Below are positions 7,700 to 61,929 of a DNA stretch of 64,000 nt, in pieces. A program made the translations under genes and the position numbers. Where the stretch lies: NCBI GenBank assembly GCA_023374045.1, contig CM041777.1, forward strand, positions 103,370,046-103,434,045, given 5' to 3'. The notes below the pieces were generated by a model. The model saw only the letters and a program-made list of their open reading frames with translations. It had not been told where the DNA came from and made no database searches. Source of the DNA: Limonium bicolor. Its lineage: Eukaryota; Streptophyta; Magnoliopsida; Caryophyllales; Plumbaginaceae. Every line of letters starts with the position of its first letter. Position 1 is the stretch's first letter.

Positions 7700-8075
7700 C
7701 TCAAGACTGTAGAAGTTATCTCCCCCGTGCTAGAATTCTCCCGCACGACCGTTCGCTACGTCCCTAAATTTGTAACACGAGTGTATTAGCTTTATGTGGT
7801 CGAGCATTAACGTTCATAAAATTCCTTAATTTCTTTTTGTTTACTTAATCTTGGATATTCACCACTTTAACTCATTAAAGTTGGCTTCTTTCCTTCCTAA
7901 GGTTTATTTCATCATAGTCTAGTAACTTATCATTATCTAGGTTCTCATTATGCTATCTATCTCACTAAGTGTGCTCCCCACCAATTTTACATTACACTAA
8001 TGTATATACACTCACATCCTTGTAATTTTCTAAGTTCCGTATGAACTTCAAACTTCCTCTTCGTCCTAATCTTAA

Positions 8076-8099
8076 CTATATATATATATATATATATAT
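8076..8099. repeat. TA microsatellite
   Basis: A pure TA run that is visibly shorter in the matching position of the other LTR (near 28867), showing slippage since insertion. Confidence 0.85.
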
Positions 8100-11863: not shown

Positions 11864-11955
11864 GAGCACCAGCTCAATTGGTTAAGACGTTCACTAGGCA
11901 TACAAGAGGTATGGGGTTCGAACCTTAGCGGGAGCGCCTTTGCTCTTTTTTCTTC
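11864..11955 (+). repeat. tRNA-derived (SINE-like) module inside the giant LTR
   Basis: A box A-like motif (AGCTCAATTGG) and a box B (GGTTCGAACC) lie about 40 bases apart, followed by T-rich sequence that would stop RNA polymerase III. It cannot fold as a normal tRNA. The other LTR has the same module at 32662-32755, so it is part of the LTR. Confidence 0.5.
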
Positions 11956-12380
11956 TTCTTTTTTATAAGTTATACATGCCTATTTATATATGTAAGACCA
12001 TATAATATATCGTGTTATTAGCGAGGTACGCGACCACTTAATTTTCGTTATGTTATATATACGACCTTTTTATTTAGTAGTGTTTTAGTTATACATAACT
12101 ATGCGACGTTACTAATTATTACAACGTTATAGTACCGTCACGTTATGTATATGTGTTTTCGTACTCGTACGTGCTTATATATATATATGCGTGACTATAT
12201 TGACATTTTCGGTTCAGAGGTGCGCATATATATTTGAGCTTATATCAGCGTGTTATGTACCGATACGCACATACGATGTTATTATTATCTACATATTTTT
12301 TTTGAGTATGATCATAATTGTTACTCATAGTTTAATTCAACCTTCACGAATTTAAACTGATAATTATTCGGGGTATTTCA

Positions 12381-12400
12381 GCCTACCCCCTTAAAGGAAC
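12381..12400 (-). other. Polypurine tract next to the 3' LTR of the giant-LTR element
   Basis: On the minus strand the sequence TTCCTTTAAGGGGGTAGGC abuts the LTR start TGAAATACCC. Confidence 0.8.
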
Positions 12401-16891: not shown

Positions 16892-16982
16892 TGGATTTAG
16901 GTTGATAAGATACAAAAGTGTAAAGACTCTGCCACGGGTGACGGTATGAAATGGCTGCCTTCATATAAATAGCTAGAAGGAG

Positions 16983-19900: not shown

Positions 19901-20249
19901 GTGTGTTTTCCGCTGTAACTGGGTTAACAACATTCATGGCTACCGTGAGGAGGAGCATGGTATGAAACTGGTTGATCTGTCTAGAGCTACTCCCACGGTT
20001 GAGCCATTCGTTGTTGGGACGAAGGTTAAGCAGATATTTTATGTAACTGATCCCTGTAATCCTAGATGGTCTGTTGTGCTTAAAGGGAGAAGAGGAATAG
20101 TTGGTGTGGATGGTGTGGTTGATGAGGATGAGTATGATGCAGAAGATGAACCTCCAACTGTTCCTATTTCATTGGAAGAGGCTGAGGTCACAGGTCATCG
20201 TGAGTATATACGATCAGACCATAACGAGGGAATGTGGGTTGAGAGATAA
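16983..20249 (+). pseudogene. CACTA TNP2-type transposase, three in-frame stops
   Basis: One continuous frame of about 1,088 codons would encode the En/Spm TNP2 transposase that cuts the element ends. The N-terminus (MERSWIYSGNLDDKFLEGVD) is the transposase-associated domain. The central part has the transposase_21 hallmark NDFPAYGNLSGY and, further on, HCIDGMHVEKN. The C-terminal third has the DUF4218-like signature PFERYMGVLKKKMKNR and the DUF4216-like signature WVLDYNSYEMCVF. Stops interrupt it at 17928 (TGA, where the family has Trp after Pro-Gln), 18135 (TAG) and 19008 (TGA), with the frame kept throughout. Decay is therefore by point mutation and is recent. No intron is needed. The start ATG immediately precedes the domain. 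Confidence 0.9.
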
Positions 20250-26994: not shown

Positions 26995-26998
26995 ACCA
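26987..26998 (-). promoter_or_regulatory. Primer binding site, tRNA-iMet type (giant-LTR element)
   Basis: The reverse complement reads TGGTATCAGAGC, five bases from the LTR edge at 27004. It marks this LTR as the 5' LTR on the minus strand. Confidence 0.9.
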
Positions 26999-30000: not shown

Positions 30001-33000
30001 AAAGAATCTGAAATGAACTGTTTTCTTCCCTGTTTTTTTTTCTCAAAACAAGTTGTAGTACCAATGGTTTGTTTCAGCAGAAGTGAATGAAGAGAGGACA
30101 GAGCATATGTGATTGTTGTATGCAATTTAAGCCCAAGAAGAGGATGAATCAAGTGCAGAGAATGAGATGCAGTTTGTCCCTAGAGGTTTATCACTACAGA
30201 GGCGCTGGAACAAGAAGAGAATGAAACGCAGAGGATGTGTGTTCTTGTTCACCAGTGTGGGTTGCAAAATTTACCACAAGTGAACAAAACGGAGATGTAA
30301 ATTATAAATGACAACAACGGTTATGTTACCACTATATGTTTACTGAGACAGAATTGTGCTGCTGCTTATTTGCTTATCTTTACTTGACTGTTAGTTTCTA
30401 TACACATTTAAGGTTCACAAATTATACATATGCCTTGTACGTGTTCTCGGTTTTCTATAGATTGGTAATCAACAATTTTAAACCTCTCTCTCCCATATTA
30501 TAGGCTCATAATTTGACTTAAACAAGTCATAACAACCTAGGCTTATTTACCCAGAACTTACCCATTGATTTCCTGCACTTAATCAAGATCTAAACTACCC
30601 ATATGCATGTATATACCCCACTGTTCTGTACAGATTTGCCACTTGGTCCTTTCGGTGGTTTTCTTCTGTTTTTCACATGTGCTTTAGCTTAAGTGAGTCA
30701 TGAGTATTTAGGTTTGTTAACCCAGCAGGTATTCATTGTTTGCTATGCATTAGTGTTGTTTCCACCACACAAACATTACTCTAGACTTTCATTTTTTTCT
30801 GCTACATATGAGATGATGAATTTAGCACATAAAGTAAGGTAAGTAATGGGTTAACCTCTTCTAATTGCCAGAGGCTTTTTCCACCACCTTCCAGCCACTC
30901 TACCTTGCAATTCTCACGGCTCTATATAGTTATACATGCCCAGGTTAGAGTTTTCTGTTTCTGGAATTTTCTTTCTTACGTAACTTGAGTAGTTTATTAG
31001 GAGTTAGAGATATGGATACCTCTTAAACTTGCTTTACCCTTGGAGATTGGTCCTTAAGCCCTTGGAACTTCAGGTAGAGGAATGAGCCTCTCTGCTGTCA
31101 CATGTATACAGAAGAGAAGGCTTTAAAAGAAAAACTGGTTTGACGCTAATTAAAGGAGTTGATAAGTGCAGTTTTCTTTGCACTTTACAACATGTTATTA
31201 CCGTGGCATCTTGGAGGTTGTCAAGCAGCCTTACATGCGCAGGAAAAGAGCAGGAAGAGTGTGACTTCAGTTTTGGTGTGGAAAACAATAGAGCTAAAGC
31301 TCTAAACAACCATGATAAGGGTGTCGGTTTTTACCTTGTCCTTAGCTCCTTCAATGGCGGTTTGGCATGGTTTTCATGCACTACTTGGGGTCATCTATAG
31401 TAGGGTAGCCGTTTCAGTTTGATGGAGAAAGAAAGAAAAATAACAAGGAGATTCAAGGCTAGACAGTAGTGCCCATGGTTAGTAATATAATTACCTTACA
31501 AGCTCGGTTCCTCCTTGGAGATTAACTCTCAGTTTTCCAGCGCTTTAGGTGGGAAAAACATGTGGCATTTGGAGGGATTATTAACAGCTTGTTCCCGGTT
31601 AACTGTACAAGCAGTGCAACTTCAGGTTTGTACAGAAACATGGGGAGAAACAGGGCTATAACAGCCACAAGCAATATAGTTTCCTACCTTGTTTTTGAGC
31701 TGATTTTTCTCTCTGTTTACAGCTCCTTGATGGGGGATTTTCTGGGTTCAATGCAGGACTGAATTCAGTTCCAAGCGCATGGAAGAAAACAGGGTGGAAG
31801 GAGGTGTGTTATAGCATAGTTTCTTACCGTTGCAGACCAAGAACTCTGCTCCAGCCGGTGCAGTTTTCTGGAGCTTGTAGAAGTGGATTGTAAACCTTGG
31901 TTTCTTGTTGTTCTTGTTGCTGTTATGGTTCAGAATAGAGAGCAGTTTCTGGAGGAGAATAATGACATCGTAGTTACTGCTGTTATGTCGCATGTATGGT
32001 GGGAAAATGACTTGGAGTTGCTTGCTCCTCTGTTGAATGAAATGGAACAGAAACATAGTAGTGCAGGTATCACGTGAATGCTTCAGTAGTGCATGGGAAA
32101 TTGACTTGAGGAATTTTGTGCCCATGCGTGGAAAGGAGGGAAAAACAGTGGGTTGCTCAGTTTATTAATTTGCAATTTGCACAGAGAGGGAGCATCTGTA
32201 GCATTACCGTGAGTATGTAGATGGACTCTAGCTGGTACGGTTGCTTTGCTTTGCTTGGGACCCGGTACGGAGGATAAGGTGATATGGTGGGGTATTGACT
32301 TGTTGCACCGATTAAAAGGAGAGAAAAAGAAGGAGGACTTGTTTTGCTGTTCGAGAACTTGGGTAGAAATGTCGTTCTGTGGCTATTTTGAGAATGGCAA
32401 GGAATTGGGTAAGAAATAACACTCTCAGATGCTAGCCACCGGCATGGGAATAAGGAGGAGATATTAGTGTCGGGCACAACATATTCCCCAGAGCGTGCGC
32501 CGGTAATTGAAACAAGAAGAGACTGTTTGCTATTGTTTTATTTTTGAGTTCAGTACAGAGGAGTTTGCCCACTGTAATGAAACGAGTGCCTGGCCTCTTT
32601 TTTTGTTTATAGTCACTTTAGTAGATTCATATCTCCAGAGGTGTAGTTTGGTACTGAATACGAGCACCAGCTCAATCGGTTAAGACGTTCACTAGGCATA
32701 CGAGAGGTATGGGGTTCGAACCTTAGCGAGAGTGCCTTTGCTCTTTTTTCTTCTTCTTTTTTATAAGTTATACATGCCTATTTATATATGTAAGACCATA
32801 TAATATATCGTGTTATTAGCGAGGTACGCGACCACTTAATTTTCGTTATGTTATATATACGACCTTTTTATTTTGTAGCGTTTTAGTTATACATTACTAT
32901 GCGACGTTATTAATTATTACAACGTTATAGTACCATCACGTTATGTATATGTGTTTTTGTACTCATACGTGCTTATATATATGCGTGACTATATTGACGT

Positions 33001-33173
33001 TTTCGGTTCAGAGGTGCGCATATATATTTGAGCTTATATCAGCGTGTTACGTACCGATACGCACATACCATGTTATTATTATCTATATATTTTTTTTAGT
33101 ATGATCATAATTGTTACTCATAGTTTAATTCAACCTTCACGAATTTAAACTGATAATTATTCGGGGTATTTCA
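27004..33173 (-). repeat. 5' LTR (6.17 kb) of the giant-LTR element
   Basis: Collinear with 6225-12380 throughout, with scattered substitutions and small indels. It includes the duplicated unit near 27928-28074, a shorter TA run near 28867, the tRNA-like module at 32662-32755, and the candidate intron donor at 28486 and acceptor at 27390. Confidence 0.9.
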
Positions 33174-33404
33174 GCATACTGGCTTTGGTTTTGTGTTTGC
33201 TTGTTGCACATATGTGCACTTGCTTTAATGGTTATTGATGTGTTCTATGTGACACTTGAATGGTTATTGTTGTGTTCTATGTAACACTTGGATGATTATG
33301 GAAGTACACTTGTTTACAGCATCTATGAGAATATTTGTGTTATGATACATTGATTGTCATGAGCAAAGGTTATGTATATGTATGAGTTGCATACGCTCGT
33401 ATGA

Positions 33405-42529: not shown

Positions 42530-44665
42530 GATCTGTTTGTGTAATATTTTGTGTAAAACTTGAGTAGTTGAGTTAGTAGGTGGTTTAGGAAGGTTTAGAG
42601 AGTAAAATTGGTGTAAAACATGCTTAGAATTCCTTTGAAAAGATTAGGGAAGAAATGAGTAGAAGAAAGGAGTTGAAACAAAGTAAAAATGAGTAGTACT
42701 AGCTTCAACCGACCTTAGTACTGACCTTGGGAAGGTCGGTCGAGCCAGAATTTGCAAACCCGGAAGTCTATTGACTTCAACCAACCTTAGGACCGACCTT
42801 GGTAAGGTCGTTCGAGTCGTAATTTTCAAACTCAAAAGTCTAATGACTTCGACCGACCTTAGGGCCGTCCCTGGCAAGGTCGGTCGGGTCAAAAATTTGA
42901 AAATGGAAGTCTTCTGACTTCAACCGACCTTACGACCGACCATGGGAAGGTCGGTCGAAGTTGAAATTTTCGAAACCCTAACCTACTGACTTTGACCGAC
43001 CTTGGGACCGACCCTGGGTAAGGTCGGTCAGATCAAATAAAAAAATGTGGGGCTTAAGTAGTAAACCATTAGGGGAGTAATGGTGGTAAGAAGAAAATAA
43101 TATGTACATAAGAAACCTAAGAGAACAAACTTAAGAAAGGAGGACAAGTAAAAGAATTGTGTGATTGAGTATGAGTTGTAAGGAGTTAGTAATTGTAAAT
43201 CGGGAACATTAATGAAGGAACGGGTTAGGTTAATAATAGACAATTAACCGTACAATTCTGTGTATGTTATAGGACTCGAATAGTTGAACCTCGAAGGAAA
43301 ATCGGAGTCCGAGTACGACGGTGAACGGTATGATTTTCTCATGCCCTGTATGCTACCGAAGTTACTCTGATTTGTGTGAACAAGATAAAATGCACGAATT
43401 GGATTTATTTCACTTCCTTATGCTTGTGCTGTTTTATACCTTATTCAATTATGCTTGAACTTTGAAGTTTGTATAATTCATGAAAGATATGATTGATGAT
43501 GAAGTGTTTGATTGTGGTTGTGCAAATGTGCTAACCTTGACTTAGTGAATGTGAAATGGCTCTCACTAACTCACTAACTATGTAACCCTTCTAACTTTGA
43601 GTAAATTGGTAAATTGGAGTATGTAAGAAGTGCGATATAGTTTCAGCCACACGTGAGGATGAGGAGACACGAGAGGTTGGATCCGATTCCTGGACTAATC
43701 TTTCTCATGGTCCAAACCCCTTAAATGGGTAGCAACCTGGGGAAGCAAGCCAACCTAAAGCCCGGTGGTGAGACGGTATAGTCTCTGCCCGGAGGTCACA
43801 CCGACTTGACTTGAGTATAATATAATAAAGGAAGTAAATGTATGAGTAAGACTAAGACTAGTGTAAGTCGTATGGTCCCGAGTAAAAGAGTAAAGAACAT
43901 CTGATTAACCCGGATGGGTAACTGACTAACAAAGGAGGAAGTAAGAACTTGAGATGTGTATTATTATGTTTGGTTGACTTGTGGATTGTCTTCCATTGTA
44001 CGTACGGTACTCTTATATGTATGTGCCTGTATGATTATAATGTTGTATGTAATAGCATGTATGCATGTATAAAATGAACCTCATGTATTCAACAAAGTAG
44101 TCGGCGTACCCCCGTTAGCACGCGGGGTATGCAAATTTCATGCCAGCTATTTGCTGATCCCCTTGGGGCACTGTTTTTATTTCTTCCAGGTACTCGTGAA
44201 GGATGATGGTCGTGTTGAGACCAAGATGAACACTTTTTGTGTAGTTATTAGATTGAGAATGGTGTACTGAGTTGTACACGGCTTATTGCCTTTTTGAGTA
44301 ACCGGTGTACCATGTGGTACATCCTTTTGGATATTTTGGAATTGTGAACTTGGTAGGAGTGAGTAGGTTGATAAACTCATAGCTTTGTTAGGACTGCAAG
44401 GAAGGGATGTAATTGATTATGATTTTGTATACTCGGTAATCAAATGTTGTAAGTAATGATGTAGACGTAATGGGAAGTATTTATGAAAGCTCAGTATATT
44501 TCTATTTATCAGACTGTTACTGTATGTAGAGTAGGCCTTGTTAGTCATATGGGCGGATAACGACATTGTATCACCCGCCGTTCATACCTGTATTTCCACT
44601 GCGAGTAGTAAGGTGACCGAGACGATTAGACAGTAATTAGAGGATTAGCGGTAGGGGTGTTACCA
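42530..44665 (+). repeat. 5'-truncated 5' LTR of the Tekay-like element
   Basis: Homology with the LTR starting at 57529 begins near 42530, equivalent to about 59310 there. Roughly the first 1.8 kb is therefore missing. It ends GGGGTGTTACCA just before a PBS. A candidate intron is at 43328-44189, and a hairpin with GTTAGTCATATGGGCGGATAAC is at 44540-44561. Confidence 0.75.
42703..43030 (+). repeat. Tandem inverted-repeat module CGACCGACCTT...AAGGTCGGTCG
   Basis: About five units of roughly 65 bases each hold CCGACCTT and AAGGTCGGTCG, so each unit can fold into a hairpin. The matching array in the other LTR is at 59480-59772. Confidence 0.85.
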
Positions 44666-44669
44666 AAAG

Positions 44670-44681
44670 TGGTATCAGAGT
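44670..44681 (+). promoter_or_regulatory. Primer binding site, tRNA-iMet type
   Basis: TGGTATCAGAGT lies about five bases after the LTR end. The following bases form an imperfect version of the PBS hairpin seen in the two other chromoviruses (44674-44697). Confidence 0.85.
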
Positions 44682-44885: not shown

Positions 44886-46310
44886 ATGCTAGGAAGAGGC
44901 CATGGTCGCGGTCGAGGCCAGGGAGAGTCAGCTGATGAGCCGGGCACGCTGACGATAGCTGAGATTGTCACTGCCACGGTAGCGTAGATGCTACCATAAG
45001 TAATAGCGGTTGTACATCAGACACAGCAGAACCAGCAGATTCAGGCTGGACCAATCCCACCCCACCGCCCAAAGACATGAATTGGGTAAAGGCAGTCGTA
45101 GATCTCCGACCTTCCTGTTTCGAGGAGAGAGCTACCCCGCCAAACTTGAAACCTATATCTCTGAGATGGAGATGGCTTTCGAGACTCTCGAAGCTCCCGC
45201 TGGAGTTCGAGTGAGGATAGCCGCCTACTACCTCAAAGATGCTACTATGGATTAGTGAAAGCTAGTAAAGGGTGAGTATGTTGATGATCTTACATTTGAT
45301 TGGGAATCCTTCACCGCTATTCTCCGATCAAAATACAATCCAGAGCACGTCAAGACAAAGAAGCGTCTAGAGCTCTACGCCTTGAAGATGACGGAGTAGA
45401 TGTCAGTTGATGAATACTACCGTACCTTCACCTCTATTCTACGACTACTACCCAACCTTGGGTACATTGGCCAGGTCTTGGTCGATCGCTTCTATGGCGG
45501 TCTGAGCCATCGCTTCCGGTATGGCATAAGGTGCTCCCAATTTACCTCCCTTCAGGTAAACATTGGTTTGAACCCTTGCTGCCATTGTCAATACTTAAAT
45601 TACTACCTTAATGAGCAATAGCACCACCTAATGCTGAAAACTTCAGGAGTGCTATCACGTTGCATCTCGTGTTGAGATCACAAGTCAACTAAGGGATGAA
45701 GAGCAAGCGCTTAAGCGCAAGGCCAACAACAAGAACACCAGCTTAGAGGAGCAGAATAAGGGTAAGAACTGGAAGAAGAGAAAGGGGAAGTTCTTCTAGC
45801 AGTCGTAAAAGAACACCCCCGGGGAGAGCAGTGCCCATGCTGAGAAAGGCAAAGCAGCTGAGATCTCACCCGCCCAAGGGTAAGATTCTGAATTTAAACT
45901 CGTACATGTGTGCAAATAATGGTTAGTATTACCGCACACAATGTGCTAACTCTCAAAGCCTCAGGTTTCTGGTTCCGGCTATGGTAAGAACCACTCCGAT
46001 GGCCATAGCTATGTCTATAGAAAATGCAACCAAGATCACCCTGGCACAGATTGCAAAGGAAGAGATATCCGATGCTTCGGTTGTTAGAAGACTAGACATC
46101 GAGTATCTGAATGCCCTACCAACCCAAGGCCTAAAGGCAACTACCAGGGCTACAAACAGAGAGAAGGCAAGGAGGTTGCATCTGGCGATGCTCAGGCCCA
46201 GCAGACCTCGCAGGGACAGGGGTCCCGAGGTGCTCAAAAGGGCACACCACAGAGGCAACCAGCCTTGCATATCATCAATCGTGATGGAACCGGTACGAAG
46301 TCCGGCCTAG
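44886..46310 (+). pseudogene. gag: gag of the Tekay-like element, frameshifted
   Basis: The N-terminal part is Gly/Arg-rich (GRGHGRGRGQGE). The core reads RGESYPAKLETYISEMEMAF and RVRIAAYYLKDAT in one frame (45120-45250), then SVDEYYRTFTSILRLLP (45403) and a further stretch with stops. Near 46018-46115 two Cys/His knuckles remain: CNQDHPGTDC, then CFGC followed by an in-frame TAG and HRVSEC. Stops at about 44985, 45253 and 45397 and frame changes make it non-functional. A paired knuckle is usual for chromoviral gag, which packages element RNA. It is followed not by protease but by the AlkB-type domain. Confidence 0.8.
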
Positions 46311-46561
46311 GTACTAACTAATACCCTTAGTCCTTGAAGAGCATGTCTAAAGTATTGAATTACCTGTTTAAGTGAATGCATGAATGAGTAGAATTAAAGT
46401 ATGAAATTGAGTATGAATTGAGCTAGTAAACCTAGAACTCATGCTATATGAAACTTACAACCCTAGGAAAATTTGATATCTGCTATCCAATACCATCAAA
46501 CAACCTGAACCTTGAAGACACCGACATCACCACTTACCACATCGCCGACGAGCAGTGCAGG

Positions 46562-47203
46562 TTATCGAACCAGGTATGATCTTATTAAAAGGATACCTGA
46601 CACCAGAAGCGCAAATTGCCATCATCTGACGTTATAACCAGCTAGGAGCGGGTCCAAGAGGATTTTACACACCCGAATTTCCCGGTGGAGTGAAGATGAA
46701 GCTGAAAATGATGTGCATGGGAATGGACTGGAACCCATAGACCAAGACATACCAGAAGACGCGAGCGGAAGACGGAGCAACACCACCAGAGATACCAACA
46801 GAATTTCAGACAGTTGTTACACAAGCCGTGGGAATTGCAACAAGAAGAGGATCCAGTCCCTTCACTTGAAGCAGATCTTTGCATCGTCAACTTCTATGAG
46901 AAAGAAGGACGACTTGGCTTACACCAAGATAAGGACGAGACAATGGAATCTCTGGAACAAGGAGTGCCCGTAGTGTCTTGGTCCATTGGTGATGACGCGG
47001 TATTTTTGTATAGCGAGAAGAAGCGTGTGGACCTCACAGAGAAGATCGTACTTAAGTCAGGAGATGTTTTGATCATGGGTGGAAAGTCGAGAATGCTGTG
47101 TCACAGTATCAAGAAGATCAAGTTGAATACGACACCATCGACAATAATCAATGCCACGCACATGAAACCCGGATGCCTGAACCTTACCTTTAGAAAGTAT
47201 TGA
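46562..47203 (+). pseudogene. AlkB-like 2-oxoglutarate/Fe(II) dioxygenase domain captured by the retrotransposon
   Basis: The frame from about 46562 reads EPGMILLKGYL, GAGPRGFYTPEFPGG and MMCMGMDWNP, the N-terminal half of plant ALKBH1-like proteins. It has a TGA near 46627 and a TAG near 46738. After one frameshift near 46811-46840 the second half is open to a natural stop at 47201. There are CIVNFYEKEGRLGLHQDKDE with the iron ligands His (46922) and Asp (46928), VPVVSWSIGDDAVF, SGDVLIMGG, a second His in CHS (47102), and LNLTFRKY. The Arg that normally opens the RxNxTxR motif is Cys (TGC at 47174), consistent with a CGC-to-TGC change. The family oxidatively removes methyl groups from nucleic acid or protein. 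The domain has no introns and lies between gag knuckles and protease, so it was probably part of the polyprotein. Similarity may start earlier, near 46478 (KFDIC). Confidence 0.88.
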
Positions 47204-47430
47204 CCTTGTAATGGCATGTAATGCATTAGTAATGTGTACTAGAGACACATATGTATGATGGGTGATTTATCAATAAAAGCAGTGTTGGTTATTAAATTCC
47301 ACTTGTGTTATACCATTGATACTCATAAAGCTTATGCATAATTAGGTTGTGGACTCAGTACCGAAGGTAACCCAAGTATCCTCACCGAACCATAAGCCGA
47401 TAAGAGTGGCACCATCCTAACGGGTACCTT

Positions 47431-47649
47431 CCCGGTAAATAGCATTGATGCCTCTGTACTGCTCGACTCCGGTGCCTCTCATACCTTTGTTTCGCCATCA
47501 TTTGCAAAGAGGTTGGGACTATACGCAGATGAACTACCAAATTTTATGGTTACACTCCCGTCGAAGGAGCGAGTAAGATGTACCAAGTATTCCCGAGCTG
47601 CCACGATTCGAATCAAGGGTGAAGAATTTCCCATCTCCTTCATTGAATG
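47431..47649 (+). pseudogene. pro: Retroviral-type aspartic protease domain
   Basis: The frame contains the active-site motif LLDSGASHTFVS (near 47457), then LPSKERVRCTKYSR, and ends at a TGA at 47647. It would cut the polyprotein. It lies 230 bases after the AlkB-type domain and 130 bases before the next readable pol segment, which is in another frame. Confidence 0.85.
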
Positions 47650-47783
47650 AACTAGTTGGAGCGGCATAAGGGGCGAATCCTCTGCGCTGAGCATAGATTG
47701 CTGCTCAGGAGTCCATCTGGGTTACAGTTTCATACCACCAGAGACCCAGAGAGCCTTCAACTACGATCATTTCCGCTATATCT

Positions 47784-49200
47784 ATGTACCGAGAGCTCAG
47801 AAAGGGGCACAATGTGTATTTGTGCTATGTGCAAGATCTAGAAAGAGACCCAGACTTCAGCACCGACGTGCTAGTTATGTCAGAATTCCCGGATGTGTTT
47901 CCGAAAGAGCTACCTGCTATGCCACCATAGAGGGCAGTTGAGTTTGAAATCGACCTTGTGCCTGGTACTGGTCCCATTGCTAGGGCACCATACCGGACGG
48001 CACCGGCAGAGATGACAGAACTGAAGGAGCAGTTGCGAGACTTGCTAGACAAAGGGTTTATACACCCGAGCGTATCACGCTAGGGAGCACCGGTCCTCTT
48101 TGTGAAGAAGAATGACGGTAGCCTCTGCCTCTGCATCGACTACCGCGAACTGAATGCGGTCACTATAAAGAATAAGTACCCATTGCCTTGCATCGACGAC
48201 TTGTTCGATCAATTGAAAGAAGCTTCAGTCTTTTCCAAGATTGACCTCCGATCAGGGTATCATCAGATTGCCATCAAAGAGCAAGATATTGAGAAAACGG
48301 CATTTCGTACTAGGTATGGCCACTACAAATTCATAGTGATGTCATTCGGTTTGTCAAATGCACCAACGAAATTCATGGATTTGATGAATTGGTTATTCAG
48401 TGATCAGTTGGATACTTCAGTAGTAGTCTTCATCGATGACATACTTGTGTATTCTAAATCCAGAGATGAGCATGAGCGCCATTTGAGGCGAGTACTTGAG
48501 ACACTGCACGAGAACCTGCTGTGTGTGAAGTTCTCCAAATGCGAGTTTTGGCTTGATCAGGTATCATTCCTTGGACATGTCATCTCGAGCGCGGGTATCT
48601 TAGTTGATACGGTGAAAATTAAAGCAGTACATTCATGGCCTAGACCTAAGACTGTTACCGAGATCTGGAGCTTTCTTGGTCTAGCCGTTTATTACTGGAG
48701 ATTTGTGAAAGACTTTTCTAAAGTTGCAAAGCCCATTGCAGCCTTGATGAAGAAGGATGCACCATTTGTGTGGACAGACGATTGTGAGAAATCCTTTCAG
48801 AGCTTGAAGGGCTCGTTGACCTCAGCGCCCGTTCTCACCATTCCAGAGGGCACTAAGGGATTTGAAGTATATTGTGATACGTCTGGTAAAGGTATGGGAT
48901 GCGTACTCATGCAGTATGACAAGATGGTAGCTTACGCCTCCCGCTAGCTGAAGAAACATGAGAAGAATTACCCAACTCATGACTTGGAGCTTGGAGCCAT
49001 TGTCTTCGCATTGAAGATATGGCGACATTATCTATACGGGGTAAGCATCACCATTTATTCTGACCATAAGAGCCTGCAGTACGTCTTCACACAGAAAGAA
49101 CTGAATCTGAGACAAAGAAGGTGGATGGAATTCCTATCTGATTACGACATCGACCTTCAGTATAAAGAAGGGAAGGCAAACGTTGTAGTCGACGCCCTGA
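47784..49200 (+). pseudogene. pol: Reverse transcriptase and RNase H of the Tekay-like element
   Basis: From 47784 the text EFPDVFPKELP leads into RT, with TAG stops near 47929 and 48081. The frame is then open at 48102-48947: [11 protein letters not shown], the catalytic [19 protein letters not shown] and [13 protein letters not shown]. RNase H starts [13 protein letters not shown]. After a TAG at 48945 it continues with [25 protein letters not shown] and DALSRR (near 49200). Motif order and spacing are those of Ty3 pol. Four or more disabling changes are visible in total. Confidence 0.9.
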
Positions 49201-50697
49201 GCCGTCGAGCACACTCACTCCATTCGCTACTCGCTTCTTCTATCTTGGTTGATGAGGTGCGAGAGGCTCAGATGAGTGACCCTTATATGAAAGAAATCAC
49301 ACAGAACATCGAGGATAGTACATTTGAGAGCCGAAAGTATGACTTCAAACTGCATGAAGATGGTCTGATTCGGCTAAATGGCGGACTATGCGTTCCTCGA
49401 AGCAATGCTAAGCTGAGGGACCGCATTCTGCGAGAATCACACTATTCTTCATTGTTCGTCCATCTGGGAGCCTCCAAAATGTACAAAGACATGAAGAGAT
49501 ACTTCTGGTGGTCAGGGATGAAGGCAGATGTTACTGAATATGTTTTAGGTGTCTCACTTGCCAGAAAGTGAAGTTTGAGCATCGATGACCGGGAGGAATG
49601 GTACACACTATGCTAGTTCCGGAGTGGAAATTCCATGATATCCCCAAGGATTTTGTTGTAGGACTCTCACCTGCCAGGGGAGGACTCAACATGATCTGGG
49701 TAGTGGTTGACCGTCTCACCAAGGTTGCCCGTTTCATTCTAACAAGGGACACTTGGAAGGTGGCGATGCTAGCTGAGCTATTCGACCGGGAGATCATTCG
49801 ACACCTCGGAGTTCCGAAGACTATAGTATCTGACCGAGATACCAGGTTTCTATCGAGATAATGGAGAGCTACACGAGAAGCGCTGGGTACTGAGTTGAAG
49901 CTTAGCACTGCGTTTCATCCACAGACTGATGGTCTGACTGAAAGGACCATCCAGACACTAGAGGACATGCTTAAAGGATGTGCCTTGGACTTTCAGGGGA
50001 GATGGATTGATGAGCTTCATCTAATCGAGTTTTCATACAACAACACCTATCACGCTTCAATTTAGATGTTGTCATTCCAAGCTTTGTATGGTAGACCTTG
50101 CCGTACCCCGTTGTTTTGTGATGAGTCAAGCGAAGCGGTCATAATTGGACCAAAGTACCTAGAATAAGTGCAAGCCGAAGTTCAGCAGATTTGAGTGAAT
50201 ATGAAAGCAGCCTAAGATAGACATAAATCATACGCGGATGTAAGACATGCGACCTTGAGTTCGACGTGCGCGATCAAGTGTTCTTGCGTATTTCACTGAT
50301 GAATGGCATATTGTGATTTGGCCAGAAGGGCAAGCTAAGCCCGAAGTTTGTAGGGCCGTATGCAATCACGGAGAGAGTTGGATCTATAGCCTACAGGTTA
50401 GCCTTACCCGAAGAGTAGGGGTGTGTCCATGATGTCTTTCATGTGTCACAACTCAAGAAAGACATTGCCGATCCTTCTCATGTTTTAGAGCCCAAACACC
50501 TATCCCTTGAGCCGATGATGAGATACGTCGAGACTCCATTGAGAATCCTTGATGCTAAGACCAGAGACACACGCCATAAGACAATGCAAATAGTGAAGGT
50601 CTTGTGGTCTATCCATGATGTCGAAGAAGCGACTTGGGAATTAGAAGACGTCATGAAGGCGAAGTACCCACAGTTATTCGTAGACCAGATTGGCTAG
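49201..50697 (+). pseudogene. pol: Integrase and chromodomain-like tail of the Tekay-like element
   Basis: The zinc-binding region ([20 protein letters not shown], near 49440) is followed by a frameshift near 49545. The core domain keeps VVVDRLTKVARF, SDRDTRF and HPQTDGLTERTIQTLEDML. Stops occur near 49587, 49859 and 50062, with more to 50420. The C-terminal region resumes with GKLSPKFVGPY (50330), and the final frame (50443-50697) has the chromodomain-like end WSIHDVEEATWELEDVM. It closely parallels the host pol tail at 5701-6108. Confidence 0.85.
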
Positions 50698-50926: not shown

Positions 50927-53119
50927 TGTAACGACCCAAAACACCGCCCTAGGAGTTAGGGACGTTACACGCCGCGTATCTATTACCTATTAATGCAAGG
51001 CTCTAACATACGATACCCAAAACAAAACAAAGTACACTTTTATTAACTGAAAATAGATTACAAGGTCTATCTGACATTACATGCAGAAGCCAAACTACAT
51101 TACGTCACATAATCAAATTACAAAGGGCCTTAAGCCACAACTACAAATACAAAGCGAAGGACGATGCAGAAAGCAGAGCGGAGTCTTCAAAGGAAACTTA
51201 AACCTGCAAATCAGAAAATAGGGGTGAGCCAAACTATAGCTCAGCAGGTGATAAACTTCATCAGCTGAGCATGCTCAAAACATATACTGAACATAATCAT
51301 ATACTAATACATAAGCTTAGCAAATCAGACTGGAAGTTGTAACATAAATCAGATAGAGAATGAAGCTTTCTCAAATCAGAGAAGTGACAAGCCAGAACCA
51401 AAATAGAAGTTTGTCAAATCAGAGCAAAGAAGCAGGGACTGAGCAAACCGGACAGAGTCTTAAATCAGAACAAAGCGAACCACAAACTCAGAAGTTCATA
51501 ACAGAAGCTCAATCAAAACAGAGGTGGGACACTAGACACCAGCTGACACATCAGAAGGACTCACATAACGTCCTATGGATCCGAAGATCCCACAACAGAA
51601 GCCGTAGAGACAGCTATGGACCCGTCGGTCACTAAACATCCAAGGGACCCTGAGAGATAGAACAGAAGGGAACCCAAGGGAATAACAGAAGGAATTCCTG
51701 CGCAGCATGCTACGGGACAGCCAGACCCGACTATCCAAGGCTCAGAAGCTAAACATCTAGGTCCCAAAACAGAAGCTTTACAAAACGAAGCAGAAGCCTT
51801 TAACAGAACAGAGCGGAGGGACGAAGCACGTCAAACGGATCATAATCCTTATCAAAACAAAGGTCATATACTGACTAGCAAACACGAAAACTAAACAGAA
51901 GCGTTGAAGCTCAAACACTCTTTCAGAGCAAATCAGAGTTCAAAGGCTTATCTAAGACTTTCAAATTAAAGTACACATATACATGTGCTAAAACATATTA
52001 GATCAGATAGTACTCGAAAAGAGGAATCCAACGCCGCAAACGGCACTCAAAACGGAGCTCAAACAAAGAAGTTATGCTAAAACAAAGGCCGGTCCGAACA
52101 TGCGTCCGACCTTGCATGTTCGGACCTAATTCGAGAGTCTGAAAATCCTCCGGCGTATGATGTCCGAACTTCAATGTTTGGACACATGTTAGGACATACC
52201 GAAAACTGCAAAATCACTTACGGAAATCAGCCAGAACCAAGCCACAAATCCCCCACAAAACATACATAACTTATTGTAGCAAATTAACCAATCGAAAACA
52301 CATTTCCATGGGGTTTTAACGCATCAAACGCACATCAAAATCAACTAAAAACATCACCAAATCAAAGAGTTAAAACAATCATATACGAAGAACAAACAAA
52401 ATCAGAAATCCCCATGGACGAACACACACAACCGAATCCATTCACCACCTACCTCACATCCGACGCAAAGCCATCTCTGCGGACCCGACAACAATCTCTA
52501 CTCGAATTCCATCACGAAATCACATACACTCGCACAAATCGAAAAGGACCAACACCGAAGGGAGAAGCAAGGAACTTGACTGATGAACAGCAACGCACAC
52601 TCCGACTTTACGGATTGGAATCCTCGATGCTGAACTTAGCCACCAGACTAATTAATTTGCAAGATGGAAGAATTGTGAAGAAGAGAGGAATTGAGGAAGA
52701 GGAAGAGGAAAACTTTGCAGAGCGGAAGTTTCTTCTTTGGGTGAGAAGAAACTGACGTGAAATGTCGTCAGGAAAGAAGGAGAGAGGAAATTAAATTAGA
52801 TTTGGAATTTCCTTCCTTTATGAATAATAGCATAAGTAAAAAGAAGGAAAAGGAAGATTAGTAGTCCTTTTACTAACCAAAGAATAAATAACAAAAAGGA
52901 ATAAAGAGTTATTAATAACTATCCTCTCTTACTAATAATTAAGTAACGAAAGGAAGAAAAGAACAATGTAAATCTCCTTTCTCAAAATGAATACTAAAGA
53001 CCGGAATAAATCATAGACGAATCAACTCAAGATTCAAAACATGATTAGTCTCCCTTTGCAAAACCGAAACAAAATAGAAGCAGGATGAAATAAAAGAAAA
53101 AAAAAACTGGGGCATAACA
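50927..53119 (-). repeat. 3' LTR of the young non-autonomous element
   Basis: In element orientation it starts TGTTATGCCCC at 53119 and ends GGGTCGTTACA at 50927. It contains a candidate intron (52199 to 51204), a GTCCGAAC/GTTCGGAC inverted-repeat module at 52085-52200, and an antisense frame of 113 codons (52414-52755) also intact in the other LTR. That frame matches nothing I recognise. Confidence 0.9.
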
Positions 53120-53122
53120 TTA

Positions 53123-53137
53123 TACCCCCCCTTAAAA
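53123..53137 (-). other. Polypurine tract of the young element
   Basis: On the minus strand TTTTTAAGGGGGGGTA lies next to the 3' LTR, preceded by ATTTCGAGGACGAAATTC, the usual remnant of a Ty3 pol end. Confidence 0.85.
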
Positions 53138-53269
53138 AGAATTTCGTCCTCGAAATTCGACGAAACCCGGAATACGAGCAGATGCACTTCAAGTGCAGGA
53201 ATACTACAATCACTAAGGCATGCAAAAAGAAACTCACAGATCGAAAGGTCAACCACACAGGGAGCTGAC

Positions 53270-54540
53270 ACTCAGAACATAACCTATAACTGATAGACTG
53301 ACAGAAGGACAATCAGCAGAATATTACTGACACAAAACCTTAGAGCACGGAAGGAACGCTCTCGTCACATAGAGCTAACACTCAGAACTTGGTAACTGAC
53401 TTGCTGACAGAAGGGACGAAGCAAAGGCAACTAAGAACTAAGCCTGGTAGCACAGGAGCGGTACCCAGACTCACCGCCGACTAACCGTCATGGAACATAG
53501 TAGCAGATCCCTACAAGCTCAAACTAAGGCACAAGAAACCCACTCCACATCGCTATCCTTACCCGGGCTAACACACCAAACCTACTGGCTCAAACGCTAA
53601 CAGAAGAACGAAATAAAAGGTTACTGGAACTTCCTCAACTTACTGCTAACTGAATGACATAAGAGCACACTAGGAGGTCACCAACACTTAGTCTTGAAGC
53701 ACAGGAGAAGCACTCAAGCACCTTAGAAACTCGCATTACAAAGATCCAGCCTTCAGAACATACTAGTAGACTCACTAATAGAAGGAACAAAGCAAAAGAT
53801 TACTTAACCACTTAACCTTATGGCACCGAAGGAACACTCACAATCTCAGAGCTCTATCTTACACGGGCCAGCTCATCGAACCACAGATGGTCTCACTGAC
53901 AGAAGGAAACAAATTAGGGGATCGCTAAAACGCTCAAAACTCTCACACTTCCAGAAGCTCTAACGTTGCACGAGCTATCACACAGACCTCTCAGACTGAC
54001 TCACCAACAAAAGGATCAAGACAGATAATTACAGAAGGTTAGGCTCGAAGCATATGCACAACACTGAAACTCACTACTGACAGGATAACAGAGGAACTCA
54101 ACAGAAGATTAGCCTAAAGGCGCAAGAAGAACACTCACTCATTTCAGAGGCTCTAACCCCAAAGAGCTAGCACTCATAGTTTACTAGCTGGCTCACTGAC
54201 AGATGAAGCAAAGCAGATGATTTCTGACGGCTAAGCACGAAAGTTCAAGAAGCACAGAAAAGATGACCACTCATCTCAAAAGCTCTACCCCGCTCGAGCT
54301 AACACACAACCTTACAGGCAGATTCACTATCAGCATGAGCGAAACACAAGATCACAGAAGGCAAAGCTTAAAGGATTAGGGCAGTAGTCACACCAGCCGC
54401 TGACTGACAAACTGAAGGGACATAACAAAAGATTACTTAAGCTCAGCCTAGAGACACAAAAGAAACACTCAACTCTCTCAGAAGATGTCCCTATCCAAAG
54501 GACTAAACAAACACACCTCTCGAACTCACCCACAAGCCAC
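53270..54540 (-). repeat. Degenerate tandem repeats filling the interior of the young element
   Basis: Units of roughly 110-160 bases recur about nine times with landmarks CTCACTGACAGAAGGA, AGCTCTA and AGCACAGGAG in the same order. There is no gene. The remainder, 54540-55213, is CA-rich, non-coding and less clearly repeated. Confidence 0.7.
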
Positions 54541-55213
54541 TCAGAACCAAAGCACAACACACTCTGGATCACACACACTGATGGACCCCTAGGCTCACAT
54601 CACACAGCTTGAAACTCTCAAACCAACACTCACACCCAAACGCAGAACTCACGACTCAGCTCACACCCGATCTCACACCCCAATGTATCATATCACTCGG
54701 ACTCGTAGCCCACACTCCCAACACTTCCAATACTGAACCAAAGCACATACCTAACCGGGTCTCACGATGAAAAAACTCCCCAAACAGCATCATAACAATC
54801 ACCTAAGCCAAACCCATCTGAACCCACTCACACCTCATAGACTGAACACATCTCTCTAACTCACATCCCAGAACACAACACAACACAACTCACATCACGA
54901 ACACACAACCCTGGCATACCTCTCAAACAAACCAGAACTCACATTTGGTCATCCTTTCCCAAAGGACCTGACTCCCTCGGACTCAGACTCAAAGCACAAA
55001 AGCACACAGATAAACAGACACTACGCTTCCGCTGCGCTACTCTGTTAGTGGACAACCACAGAGCAGACACACTCATTAGACTCCAAGAAACAATCAAATC
55101 ATACAACAAACAGCAGTCGAATCACGCAGTAGGCAGCACACAACACATAAGCAGGCAAGAACACGGAAGCGTAGGCATGCAGACACCCACAAAACCCAAA
55201 GAAAGCCAAACCT

Positions 55214-55226
55214 GGCTCTGATACCA
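55214..55226 (-). promoter_or_regulatory. Primer binding site, tRNA-iMet type (young element)
   Basis: The reverse complement reads TGGTATCAGAGCC, five bases from the LTR edge at 55232. Unlike the chromoviruses, no hairpin overlaps it. Confidence 0.9.
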
Positions 55227-55231
55227 CAAAA

Positions 55232-57417
55232 TGTAATGACCCAAAACACCGCCCTAGGAGTTAGGGACGTTACACGCCGCGTATCTATTACCTAATAACG
55301 CAAGGCTCTAACATACGATACCCAAAACAAAACAAAGTACACTTTTATTAACTGAAAATAGATTACAAGGTCTATCTGACATTACATGCAGAAGCCAAAC
55401 TACATTACGTCACATAATCAAATTACAAAGGGCCTTAAGCCACAACTACAAATACAAAGCGAAGGACGATGCAGAAAGCAGAGCGGAGTCTTCAAAGGAA
55501 ACTTAAACCTGCAAATCAGACGGAAATAGGGGTGAGCCAAACTATAGCTCAGCAGGTGATAAACTTCATAAGCTGAGCATGCTCAAAACATATACTGAAC
55601 ATAATCATATACTAATACATAAGCTTAGCAAATCAGACTGGAAGTTGTAACATAAATCAGATAGAGAATGAAGCTTTCTCAAATCAGAGAAGTGACAAGC
55701 CAGAACCGAAATAAAAGTTTGTCAAATCAGAGCAAAGAAGCAGGGACTGAGCAAACCGGACAGAGTCTTAAATCAGAACAAAGCGAACCACAAACTCAGA
55801 AGTTCATAACAAAAGCTCAATCAAAACAGAGGTGGGACACTAGACACCAGCTGACACATCAGAAGGACTCACATAACGTCCTATGGATCCGAAGATCCCA
55901 CAACAGAAGCCGTAGAGACAGCTATGGACTCGTCGGTCACTAAACATCCAAGGGACCCTGAGAGATAGAACAGAAGGGAACCCAAGGGAATAACAGAAGG
56001 AATTCCTGCGCAGCATGCTACGGGACAGCCAGACCCGACTATCCAAGGCTCAGAAGCTAAACATCTAGGTCCCAAAACAGAAGCCTTTAACAGAACAGAG
56101 CGGAGGGATGAAGCACATCAAACAGATCATAATCCTTATCAAAACAAAGGTCATATACTGACTAGCAAACACGAAAACTAAACAGAAGCGTTGAAGCTCA
56201 AACACTCTTTCAGAGCAAATCAGAGTTCAAAGGCTTATCTAAGACTTTCAAATTAAAGTACACATATACATGTGCTAAAACATATTAGATCAGATAGTAC
56301 TCGAAAAGAGGAATCCAACGCCGCAAACGGCACTCAAAACGGAGCTCAAACGAAGAAGTTATGCTAAAATAAAGGCCGGTCCAAACATGCGTCCGACCTT
56401 GCATGTTCGGACCTAATTCGAGAGTCTGAAAATCCTCCGGCGTATGATGTCCGAACTTCAATGTTCGGACACATGTTAGGACATACCGAAAACTGCAAAA
56501 TCACTTACGGAAATCAGCCAGAACCAAGCCACAAATCCCCCACAAAACATACATAACTTATTGTAGCAAATTAACCAATCGAAAACACATTTCCATGGGG
56601 TTTTAACGCATCAAACGCACATCAAAATCAACTAAAAACATCACCAAATCAAAGAGTTAAAACAATCATATACGAAGAACAAACAAAATCAGAAATCCCC
56701 ATGGACGAACACACACAACCGAATCCATTCACCACCTACCTCACATCCGACGCAAAGCCATCTCTGCGGACCCGACAACAATCTCTACTCGAATTCCATC
56801 ACGAAATCACATACACTCGCACAAATCGAAAAGGACCAACACCGAAGGGAGAAGCAAGGAACTTGACTGATGAACAGCAACGCACACTCCGACTCTACGG
56901 ATTGGAATCCTCGATGCTGAACTTAGCCACCAGACTAATTAATTTGCAGGATGGAAGAATTGTGAAGAAGAGAGGAATTGAGGAAGAGGAAGAGGAAAAC
57001 TTTGCAGAGCGGAAGTTTCTTCTTTGGGTGAGAAGAAACTGACGTGAAATGTCGTCAGGAAAGAAGGAGAGAGGAAATTAAATTAGATTTGGAATTTCCT
57101 TCCTTTATGAATAATAGCATAACGTAAAAAGAAGGAAAAGGAAGATTAGTAGTCCTTTTACTAACCAAAGAATAAATAACAAAAAGGAATAAAGAGTTAT
57201 TAATAACTATCCTCTCTTACTAAAAATTAAGTAACGAAAGGAAGAAAAGAACAATGTAAATCTCCTTTCTCAAAATGAATACTAAAGACCGGAATAAATC
57301 ATAGACGAATCAACTCAAGATTCAAAACATGATTAGTCTCCCTTTGCAAAACCGAAACAAAATAGAAGCAGGATGAAATAAAAGAAAAAAAAAACTGGGG
57401 CATAACATTGAACACCT
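55232..57417 (-). repeat. 5' LTR of the young non-autonomous element
   Basis: Near-identical to 50927-53119. The main difference is a gap of about 20 bases near 56087. The GTCCGAAC module is at about 56372-56487. Confidence 0.9.
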
Positions 57418-57528: not shown

Positions 57529-59772
57529 TGAAATACCCCGAAATTAAAAATAGTGATTAATTAGGCTAATGAAGATTTTATAAGCTTTATTATGCCTGAA
57601 TAAGCACATGGGAACAATTTCCGAAGAAAATGGATCCATAAAACGGATTAAAAACATAAACGAACCTTAAAGCGTGTTTTTTGAGGAAACCGGGAAAACG
57701 TGACTTTAAGTGGGTTAAATAGACCCGTAATAATTTTAGTCAATAAAATGTCTATAATTATACATTAGTGAACGTCTAGAACCATTAAAATTAATTAATC
57801 GAGAAAATTCCAGAAAACGGGTTTTAGTGAGTGAATAGTGCAAAAACTAGAACTTATGGGGTGTTAATTGTAATAAGACTGAAATACTCCTCCCCATTTG
57901 TAATTAAAAAAATCTGGAACTTTTGTGTGGGTGTGTGTCACGATTTACCCCTCCCTCTCACACTCTCTTTATTTGCTTTTATACACAAAAGGACAAAACA
58001 ATTAATGAATAAAATAAGAAAAGTAAAAAGCAAAAGTACATTACCTTACTCTATGAGTCTCTCTCCTCCATTTCTCTTGCTCTCTCACGTACTCCCCCTC
58101 CAACCTGAATTCTTCTTCCTCCTTCAGCCCTTTAATGGCGATTCCATGAGGCCCTTACCAACACTCTCTTCTTCTCCATCATTGAAGGCTCAAACCTTGT
58201 CCAAATTCTATAAAAACTGTACCATTGAACTCTCCTCACGTAGGAGATCATTTTCCTCCTTTAGAAAATAAAAAACCTCAACTTTCATCTCCATGTCTAA
58301 AGCTCATTTGAAGGTTTGAGAACACCAATGTGAGCTCCTTCATCTCCTTGTTATTCTAAGGTAAAAAGATGTCCAAAAATCCCTCTTTTCTAGCTCTCTT
58401 TTACAATATAGAAAATTCCAGATTTTGAGCTCTTGTTGTTCCTTGTCCAGCCGGTTTTGGCCTCAAGTTAGGAGCTTGAATCTTGTTATTTTGCTAGCCA
58501 AAAACTCCACTTAGTGATTGAAAGGTAATCCCTCATTTTTGATTATCAAAACTCTCTTGAATTCTAGGGTTAATTCATGAGTGATGGATTTACTTAGCAT
58601 TGTTATGTATACCTTTAAATATGGGTTGTAGCTTGACCAAGTTGTGAGGCAAGAACATAGAAAAGAAAGAGTAAGAAGAGGAAGAAAAGAGCAAGAAGAT
58701 AAAGGAGAAACAAATCAAGAAAATACCAAGGTAATGAACTTACCTTTGGATCAAACTTAGTGTCTTGTAGTATGAGGAAATACATGCTTAAGTATTGTAT
58801 AACTAGAGTAAAGGTAAACAAATGATGGAAAGGTATTCTAGTATGAATTGTGTTGATGTTTAATGGCCTTAGAGCCAAGTATCTAAGTTATTGTACAATG
58901 GGATTATTGTTGAGCTTGTGCAGGAAAATATTGAGTAAGAGATTGAGTTATTTTATTGTTATTGATGTCTTGAATAAACACTGATGTAAAACTGAGTTGT
59001 ATGAGCTAAATAATGTGGTAAGAATGCTTACAAATGTAGGGAACCTCTATCAAATTTTGTCTAGAAACTAAGGGACTTAAGTGTTTTAAGGAGAAGAAAT
59101 AACATAGGATTAACTAGGTATGTTCTAGGTTTAATGTGAGTAGTTAACCACTTTGGAAACTAAATTGGGAGAGTTAGGTAATGGAGTAGCATGTGAGGTG
59201 AAAACAATGCTATGAACACTAGTAATGCATTAGTTGAAGAACCATTGAGTTAGTGAAGAGAAGGAAAACAAAATCTGTAGCAAGCACTTAAGAGGGAAGA
59301 TTAAGAGTGGAAGAATTGTGTAAATTAGACAAAACTTGAGTAGTTTAGTGAGTAGATGGTTTATAAAGTTTTAGAGTATAAAATTGGTGTCAAACAAGCT
59401 TAGAATGCCTTGGAAAATATTAGGGAAGAAATGAGTAGAAGAAAGGAGTTGAAACAAAGTCAAAATGAGTAGTACTGGCTTTGACCGACCTTAGGACCGA
59501 CCCTGGGAAGGTCGGTCGAGCCAGAATTTGCAAACCCGGAAGTCTACTAACTTCGACCGACCTTAGGAATGACCTTGGTAAGGTCGGTCGAGTCATAATT
59601 TTCAAACTCAGAAGTCTACTAACTTCGACCGACCTTAGGACCGACCCTGGCAAGGTTGGTTAGGTCAAAATTTTCAAAACAGAAGTCTTCTGACTTCAAC
59701 TGACCTTAGGACCGACCTTGGAAAGGTCGGTCGAAGTTGAAATTTTTGAAACCCCAACCTACTGACTTCGAC
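57529..59772 (+). repeat. 3' LTR of the Tekay-like element, cut by another LTR
   Basis: It starts TGAAATACCCC after a PPT. From about 59310 it matches the 5' LTR copy from 42530. It breaks off inside the CGACCGACCTT array, where the next LTR begins. A frame at 57831-58271 has no recognisable domain. Confidence 0.8.
59480..59772 (+). repeat. Tandem inverted-repeat module, second copy
   Basis: Four and a half units with CGACCGACCTTAGGACCGAC, matching 42703-42965 in order, truncated at the insertion point. Confidence 0.85.
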
Positions 59773-61929
59773 TGAAATACCCCAAACCTTAATATGTTAA
59801 TTAATTATGTGATTATGATTTTTTATGGCTAATTAAGTCCTTAAGATCATTGGTGAAGAAATAAAAACCAAAAAGAAAAAGAAAATGCATAAAAGTCACA
59901 AAACGTGAAAACACGTATTTAATTATTTTAGGAGGTATATAACCTTCACTAGTGTTATAAATATATTTTTATACCCTAATTACACACTAAGAGCATGTGG
60001 GAAAAATTCCTGAAGAAAACAGATCTAAATAATGCGTTAAAACGCTAACGGAGTCTTAAAACGCGTTTTGGAGAAAACCCGAAAAAGTGAATTTAAACAG
60101 TTAAATGACCCTGTATAAATTATGGTTGATTATATAACTATAATTAAACATTAATGAGAGCCTAAGAACCATTAAAATAAAAGAAACGAGAAAAATCCAA
60201 AAAACGGGCCCGGATTAGTGAACAGTGTAAAAACGGGGATTTATGGGGTGTAAACTGTAATAAAAGTAAAGTACCCTCCTTCCCTTGCAAAATAAAAATC
60301 TGGCTCCTCACATAGCCATTCACGTTTTAAAACCCCCCCTCTCTTATCTTAAAACCTTACTTTACAAAAGGTAAAGTAATAAAGTGGAAATAAAGTACAT
60401 ACTCACCTTTTGACATTCTCTCTCCTCCATTCTCTACTCCTCTCACGTTTTTCTTTTCTTCTTTCTCCAGACCTCCCTCTATGTTCCTTGCTGCTCCCAT
60501 GGCCATTTCAAAACCCCCACCAAACTTCATCTTCCTCCTTCTTGTTCTACCACCAAACCAACTCAAAACAACAAAATAAATACATATTATTACTCCCCTC
60601 ATCTTGGATATCATTTCCCTCTTTTCAAAATCTCAAAACCATGAAGTTGAATTCCATGGGTATTACCCATTTGAAGATAAAATCCCATTGCAAGGAGCTT
60701 GGTTGCCTTCCCTTTCATCCAAGGTAAGAAAAGCTAAAAGAAAAACTCATTTTTCTCTCCATCTTTGTCCTAGCCGATTTTTGACCTCCTAATGTCTTGC
60801 CTTCTTCTTGTTTTGGAGCATTGATTCAAGTCTCCAATGGTGGATTGAAACCCTCCTTTGATTCATGGTTGAAAACCAATTCTAGGGTTTAAAAAGGTAA
60901 TCCCTTAATTAGTGCTTTAAGCACCTTTCCTTGTGCTAGCTTAATTAATGTGTCTAAGTGATTTTACTTAGCCCATTCCTTCTTGAATGTTGGCCTAGAG
61001 TGTGGGCAAAGACAATGCCATGGCCGAAATCAAGAGAAGGCGAGCAAGAGGAGAATTAAAAGAGGAACTTGTGAAATTAAGGTAAGGAATTAACCTTGAA
61101 GCTTGTTTTAATTGTTTTAGTATTTGGGATGGGTTAGACTAAATAATAAACCCAAAACTTGTGCTAGCAATGTGTTTAGTGAATGTGAGAGGAAATTTTT
61201 GTGATGATGTTTAGTGTTTGGTGCAATGTTAAGTTGTGTCTTGATTTAAGGGCGTAAGAGCCAAACATTTGAGTTAATGCACTATGTGGTGATTGATGGA
61301 GCATTGATGGATTTATGTGTGCTGGTAGAACCCATGTGGTTTGGCTAGTTATAGGATGAATTATGTGAAGAAATGAGTTTTGGGTAATGTTAGAGAAGTA
61401 GCCGGGTTATGGCTAATTTTCGGTAGAAAACCGAGTGTTAAGGTGATGTTGGGAGGATGGTGAACCTATGTGTTCTTGGGAGAAAATAGAAGTTTTAATG
61501 AGTGGAATAAACTCACCAAGAACTAGAGAATGGGAGTTAGGAGGACGGATGCAAAAACTGTAACATAAAGTAGGAGGAAAGTCATGAATTTTGCTAGTAA
61601 TGAACTATGGTGTTTAACTTGTGAAACAAGAGTTGGACTTGGGCTTTAGAGAATGCATTGGACTAGGAATGATTTGGGGTGTTCATTAAGTAATGTGGTA
61701 AGGTTGGTGAAAGGATATGAAACATCAAAAGAGGTTTTAAATGCACTGCTATGCATAATGCAATAGAGGGAATGGAGAATTTAGGAATTTGAGCAAGAAT
61801 TTGAGTAGGGATTAAACCAACGATTTGAAGAGGGTTGGAGCATGTTTTAAGGTGTTTAAACATGTAGGAAATGTGTGGAAAGTTTATTGGATGATTAGAT
61901 GTGAATTAGGGGTTGAAAACTGCTCAAAA

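Follow-up and report, generated by a model that had tools for sequence, protein, structure and literature searches.

The stretch analysed here (the window) covers 64,000 nucleotides of Limonium bicolor DNA (assembly GCA_023374045.1, contig CM041777.1, positions 103,370,046 to 103,434,045 of the forward strand). It holds an old, broken copy of a high-copy Ty3 family, likely of the chromovirus type, into which another element has been nested. Between the gag and protease sequences of this copy lies an exon for an AlkB-type dioxygenase. The features of the AlkB-bearing element, in window positions, are as follows.

44670..44680, plus strand: primer-binding-site-like sequence TGGTATCAGAG, directly after the end of the 5′ long terminal repeat (LTR)
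45100..45555, plus strand: gag capsid part, decayed (tblastn with P0333, E 2e-21)
45556..45646, plus strand: intron-like interruption 1, GT..AG, missing from P0333 and from the related copy L098, in which gag is uninterrupted here
45880..45964, plus strand: intron-like interruption 2, GT..AG
45965..46310, plus strand: gag zinc-knuckle exon, ending at a splice-like donor
46311..46466, plus strand: intron-like stretch separating gag from AlkB, with a GT donor at 46311 and an AG acceptor at 46465-46466
46467..47203, plus strand: AlkB exon, ALKBH1-type 2-oxoglutarate (2OG)-Fe(II) dioxygenase, ending in its own stop (profile match, structure match by sequence, alignment to relatives)
47272..47277, plus strand: AATAAA downstream of the AlkB stop and upstream of the protease acceptor, found in L094-L097 and in 29 of the 30 copies aligned
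47346..47720, plus strand: protease, first exon base 47346, acceptor AG at 47344-47345
47724..50679, plus strand: reverse transcriptase, RNase H, integrase and chromodomain-like tail, decayed, about 68-71% identity to P0296
59331..59775, plus strand: piece of the 3′ LTR, 89% identity to 42555-42999, partly tandem repeats

The order of gag, protease, reverse transcriptase, RNase H and integrase, together with the LTRs and the primer site, identifies the element as a Ty3/Gypsy (Metaviridae) LTR retrotransposon, with the 3′ LTR of the window copy recovered only in part. The match between the two LTRs spans only 445 bases and partly consists of tandem repeats. We take TGGTATCAGAG to be a match to plant initiator tRNA-Met. 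P0296 is an intact relative of pol; it aligns with the main pieces of the window pol at 68-71% identity and with the protease start at 46%. On P0296 a Chromo match reached 17.8 bits (E 0.003), and the tail of the window element (50251-50679) aligns with P0296 at 68%. This match is under the Pfam cut-off of 25.1, so the chromovirus assignment is likely but not proven. In addition, 72-base tandem repeats lie in the LTRs of the element at 42703-43030 and 59473-59775.

The open piece at 46712-47200 matched the Pfam family PF13532 (2OG-FeII_Oxy_2) with 107.9 bits (E 1e-30, cut-off 31.2), and the outside relative P0004 matched it with 153.9 bits. When the sequence was compared with those of solved structures, the top match was rice OsALKBH1 (E 3e-37), far better than bacterial AlkB (1e-15) and mammalian ALKBH1 (1e-10). 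The AlkB of the window is closest to ALKBH1 in sequence, predicted fold and tree. ALKBH5 was not among the 50 matches listed, which does not exclude kinship with ALKBH5.

An earlier note, made from the letters of the window, had described an AlkB-like domain with the iron ligands His 46922, Asp 46928 and His 47102, and these residues do lie at those places in the translation. It had also called the copy dead. Piecewise alignment to the relatives P0002 and P0004 bears this out, with two in-frame stops, one frameshift and, in the 2OG motif (RxxxxxR), a Cys at the first position, where the relatives have Arg. The start at 46562 given by the same note has to be moved upstream to about 46467, because a FDICYP motif at about 46470 is common to the window copy and P0004, and an F-x-I-C motif is present in 16 (hand count) of 29 inspected rows from host plants and algae. 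The position between the gag zinc knuckle and the protease is as the note described. Its gag stands as far as the zinc knuckle upstream of AlkB is concerned, but this gag is not plain, since the GT-AG interruptions at 45556-45646 and 45880-45964 and the donor at 46311 recur in other copies.

We searched the window's own genome (2.92 Gb) at the protein level and considered the best-scoring places. With the AlkB piece of the window as query, at least 150 places matched (150 of 150 scored). The outside relative P0002 matched at least 150 places at 73-77% identity, and 137 of the 150 best were free of stops (hand count). Meanwhile, the Dioscorea host protein P0008 matched at least 150 places at 52-57% identity. 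All three lists are lower bounds and are biased to well-kept copies, and they had no place in common on C2 and C8, the two contigs compared by eye. The family therefore includes at least 150 copies, and probably over 400. The host ALKBH1 gene of this genome was sought with P0008 and none was identified among the at least 150 best matches, because that list was filled with unbroken copies.

To describe the neighbourhood, 95 copies were fetched, 90 from the list of the window query, four from that of P0002 and one from that of P0008. Gag was found upstream of AlkB in 87 of them (a gag match was absent in the other 8), protease downstream in 94, and both in 86. The one copy lacking a protease match, L098, did so because the fetched stretch ended. 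One could suppose that the reported places are mostly host ALKBH1 genes or retrogenes outside elements, as the three lists are protein matches only and the context comes from 95 copies, 90 of them from one list. However, gag and protease stand beside AlkB in those 86 copies, including all four of the P0002 list (L094-L097), and the single copy of the P0008 list has gag. We regard this supposition as the least credible of those considered here. L098 (G000:C8:10213100-10215100) represents a further subfamily, with 72% identity to P0004 in AlkB and a gag without interruption 1; it lacks the stop of AlkB, and a length of 644 codons is given for its open frame.

The domain has been under strong purifying selection while the subfamilies diverged. 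Residues 97-208 could be aligned ungapped in one frame in 83 of 94 copies, of which eight hold a stop there. Among these 83, the mean ratio of nonsynonymous to synonymous substitution rates (dN/dS) was 0.13-0.20 for pairs with less than 20% DNA divergence, and 0.06 and 0.05 at higher divergence, at which dS is close to saturated. When the wrong frames were treated in the same way, the values were 0.61-1.65 (+1) and 1.97-3.06 (+2). In addition, the ratio of nonsynonymous to synonymous differences (pN/pS) between L094-L097 and the other 79 copies was 0.15 (bootstrap 0.10-0.22), and the catalytic H, D, H, R and R were kept in 83, 83, 82, 81 and 83 of the 83 copies. These data bear on the idea that one element received a processed transcript of host ALKBH1, which was then amplified with it as a passenger of no use to the element. 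An intronless exon with AATAAA after its stop does resemble a captured mRNA end, and the window copy is dead. However, dN/dS of 0.05-0.20 and a catalytic site that hardly varies even among subfamilies whose dS is nearly saturated are not expected of a passenger, nor is the rarity of stops among the best P0002 places, even if best places are biased to intact ones. The idea is therefore disfavoured, and we consider it very improbable.

Among the matches listed, the closest outside proteins to the AlkB piece are six, including P0004, and P0004 matches P0296, an intact pol protein of the same kind, in the size of its source contig. Several of the outside matches carry the source name DNA N(6)-methyladenine demethylase. 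In a tree rooted on algae, the element copies formed one clade, which indicates a single capture from seed-plant ALKBH1, and the host ALKBH1 genes formed a separate group. The proposal of the earlier note that a retrotransposon family captured ALKBH1-like coding sequence is well supported, because the copies are many, the neighbours are the same in 86 of 95, the domain is under purifying selection and the copies form a single clade. The domain is not confined to one copy, and a processed pseudogene that reached the window by chance does not account for the locus. A first scan of viral contigs found no relative, and a second scan found three loci at 37-41%. In P0178 (Cinnamomum) a single protein contains both gag and AlkB, but the AlkB portion resembles host ALKBH1, and we judged P0178 to be a probable gene-model chimera. 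P0122, P0124 and similar proteins (Smallanthus) are host proteins with apparently tandem AlkB domains (P0122 was read).

The note had placed AlkB simply between gag and protease and missed splice-like sites that could join AlkB to gag. These were counted in 30 aligned decayed copies and in the four less decayed copies L094-L097. In the decayed copies, the borders of interruption 1 read CAG|GTAAA in 28 of 30 and CAG|GAGTG in 27 of 30; the GT at the gag end was present in 30 of 30, and the AG before AlkB and the AG before protease each in 29 of 30 (within 3 bases). In L094-L097, the gag-AlkB stretch can no longer be aligned to the window by blastn. In all four, the donor leaves one base and both acceptors add two, so the predicted in-frame fusion holds for AlkB and for protease alike, and the gag frame closes six codons on if unspliced. 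Furthermore, the region before the first AlkB Met has a pN/pS of 0.34 (0.20-0.53; 66 copies), and the frame upstream of this Met has no start codon before its stop. Constrained codons in a frame without a start fit translation from gag.

Thus, we think it fairly likely that the catalytic part of a seed-plant ALKBH1 was captured once, has been kept by selection, and is expressed through a splice switch between Gag-AlkB and Gag-Pol. AlkB would be an exon between gag and pol, and the donor at the gag end (46311) would join either the acceptor before AlkB (46467) or that before protease (47346). As either join preserves the frame of gag, a single RNA would yield Gag-AlkB or Gag-Pol. The Gag-AlkB product would end with the stop codon of AlkB, which AATAAA follows. 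Unspliced RNA would give Gag alone and would serve as the template that is copied.

Several points weigh against this account. The splicing and the Gag-AlkB fusion are predictions from sequence, and L094-L097, the four clean copies, were picked among AlkB matches that have no stop. In the decayed copies, the joint phases are compatible with Gag-AlkB in only 11 of 28 cases and with Gag-Pol in only 12 of 27, close to the one third that chance would give, and the modal phases taken singly are phase 1 for the donor (15 of 28) and phase 2 for the acceptors (19 of 29 and 20 of 29); the phases are scattered in these 30 copies because of indels. A Gag-AlkB protein was sought at about 503-1601 amino acids, and none was found (0 of 112 rows above 55% identity to P0002). 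With bacteria as outgroup, the element clade fell outside all plant ALKBH1. In addition, the placing of P0004 and P0296 on one contig rests on equal length only. Finally, a cruder dN/dS count across frameshifts gave 0.29-0.59 (0.11-0.35 for reverse transcriptase in that count), which was weighed less because it mixes frames.

Some of these points would also suit a captured and selected accessory open reading frame (ORF) that is translated alone, from the Met of MILLKGYL, by internal entry or its own promoter, while the splice-like sites serve Gag-Pol only or nothing. The phases close to chance and the missing Gag-AlkB protein agree with this, P0002 and P0007 start at this Met (a start picked by the gene caller), and in an orchid element ORF2 is likewise separate (PMC9289625). 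However, the codons before the Met are constrained and their FDICYP is common to host ALKBH1, the upstream frame has no start before its stop, and the acceptor before AlkB is kept in 29 of 30 copies and in phase in four of four. We consider translation on its own unlikely, although it deserves more weight than the passenger idea.

Returning to the splice switch, Gag-AlkB would bring a demethylase along into the virus-like particle. In plants, enzymes of the ALKBH1 type have methylated nucleic acids as their substrates. The substrate of the element enzyme and its benefit are guesses by analogy. ALKBH9B removes N6-methyladenosine (m6A) from ONSEN RNA and aids ONSEN mobilisation, according to PMC12786077, and a Gag-borne ALKBH1-type enzyme would in the same way clean the element RNA, primer tRNA or cDNA, most likely by stripping base methyls from them. 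ALKBH1 demethylates tRNA, and 1-methyladenosine (m1A) at position 58 of a primer tRNA has a role in retroviral reverse transcription (both as cited in PMC5372732). A more specific form, which we hold only tentatively, is that AlkB is a splice-chosen alternative ending of Gag, with one donor serving AlkB or Pol. The element would thereby set its ratio of Gag-enzyme to Pol and also load an ALKBH1-type eraser into its particles, with the RNA inside them or the m1A in the initiator-tRNA-Met primer as its target.

AlkB capture by an abundant plant Ty3 element, with the cofactor residues of the domain kept, has been described in Phalaenopsis orchids (Gypsy_Pa_2799 and relatives; PMC9289625, as for all orchid statements below). 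Therefore, the kind is known and the Limonium element is a variant of it. In vitro, the orchid AlkB protein could bind RNA and remove m6A, and the survey of 121 genomes made there found no such domain in other species. The orchid AlkB is ALKBH5-like, whereas that of Limonium is ALKBH1-type. The orchid element is an Ogre/Tat element of 25.5 kb with dual RNase H, whereas the Limonium element is likely chromovirus-type. In the orchid, a separate ORF2 of 565 amino acids stands beside a single Gag-Pol ORF and the primer site is that of tRNA-Arg, whereas here the order is gag-AlkB-protease (86 of 95 copies), the primer site is tRNA-Met-like, and splice-like sites are present. The Limonium capture looks separate from the orchid one. 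Among the listings obtained from the open-licence literature, preprints excluded, none reported a chromovirus with an AlkB domain or a plant retrotransposon with ALKBH1, and none described such a splicing switch.

Other systems are also comparable. The plant ALKBH1 represented by OsALKBH1 (5xoi/5xeg) has in many hosts a long N-terminal part, which is lost from the element form. Ogre (Ty3) and EVADE (Ty1/Copia) have regulated splicing, in which spliced and unspliced RNA likewise set the protein made (PMC6317226 and PMC12786077); the one intron of Ogre leads to Gag-Pol and that of EVADE to a short Gag, whereas the switch predicted here would use an alternative acceptor to attach an enzyme to Gag. 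Plant RNA viruses with AlkB in the replicase (PMC9289625) are likewise mobile agents with AlkB, likened here by description only.

If our account is true, this would be a second, separate demethylase capture by plant Ty3 elements, with another AlkB branch, lineage and position in the element. Repeated capture would point to methyl marks, be they on RNA or DNA, as a genuine barrier for plant retrotransposons. The predicted Gag-AlkB fusion is a testable link from a particle protein to base demethylation, and the abundance of the family in one genome provides material for testing it.

Other repeats lie in the window. One more element is inserted downstream of the pol of the AlkB element.

50927..57409, minus strand: second LTR element, terminal repeats 50927-53121 and 55232-57409, 98% identical

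Its minus orientation was read from a primer-site-like sequence at 55226. Another fragment of the same pol type as the AlkB element lies at 5701-6108, with 81% identity to the end of P0296. In addition, a direct repeat of 6.2 kb (6225-12386 and 27004-33179, 95.6% identical), with a minus-strand primer-site-like sequence at 26998, is probably the LTR pair of a giant element some 27 kb long. Inside this repeat pair, open frames with Transpos_assoc, Transposase_21, DUF4218 and DUF4216 lie at 16977-20246, and they belong to a DNA transposon of the CACTA type.
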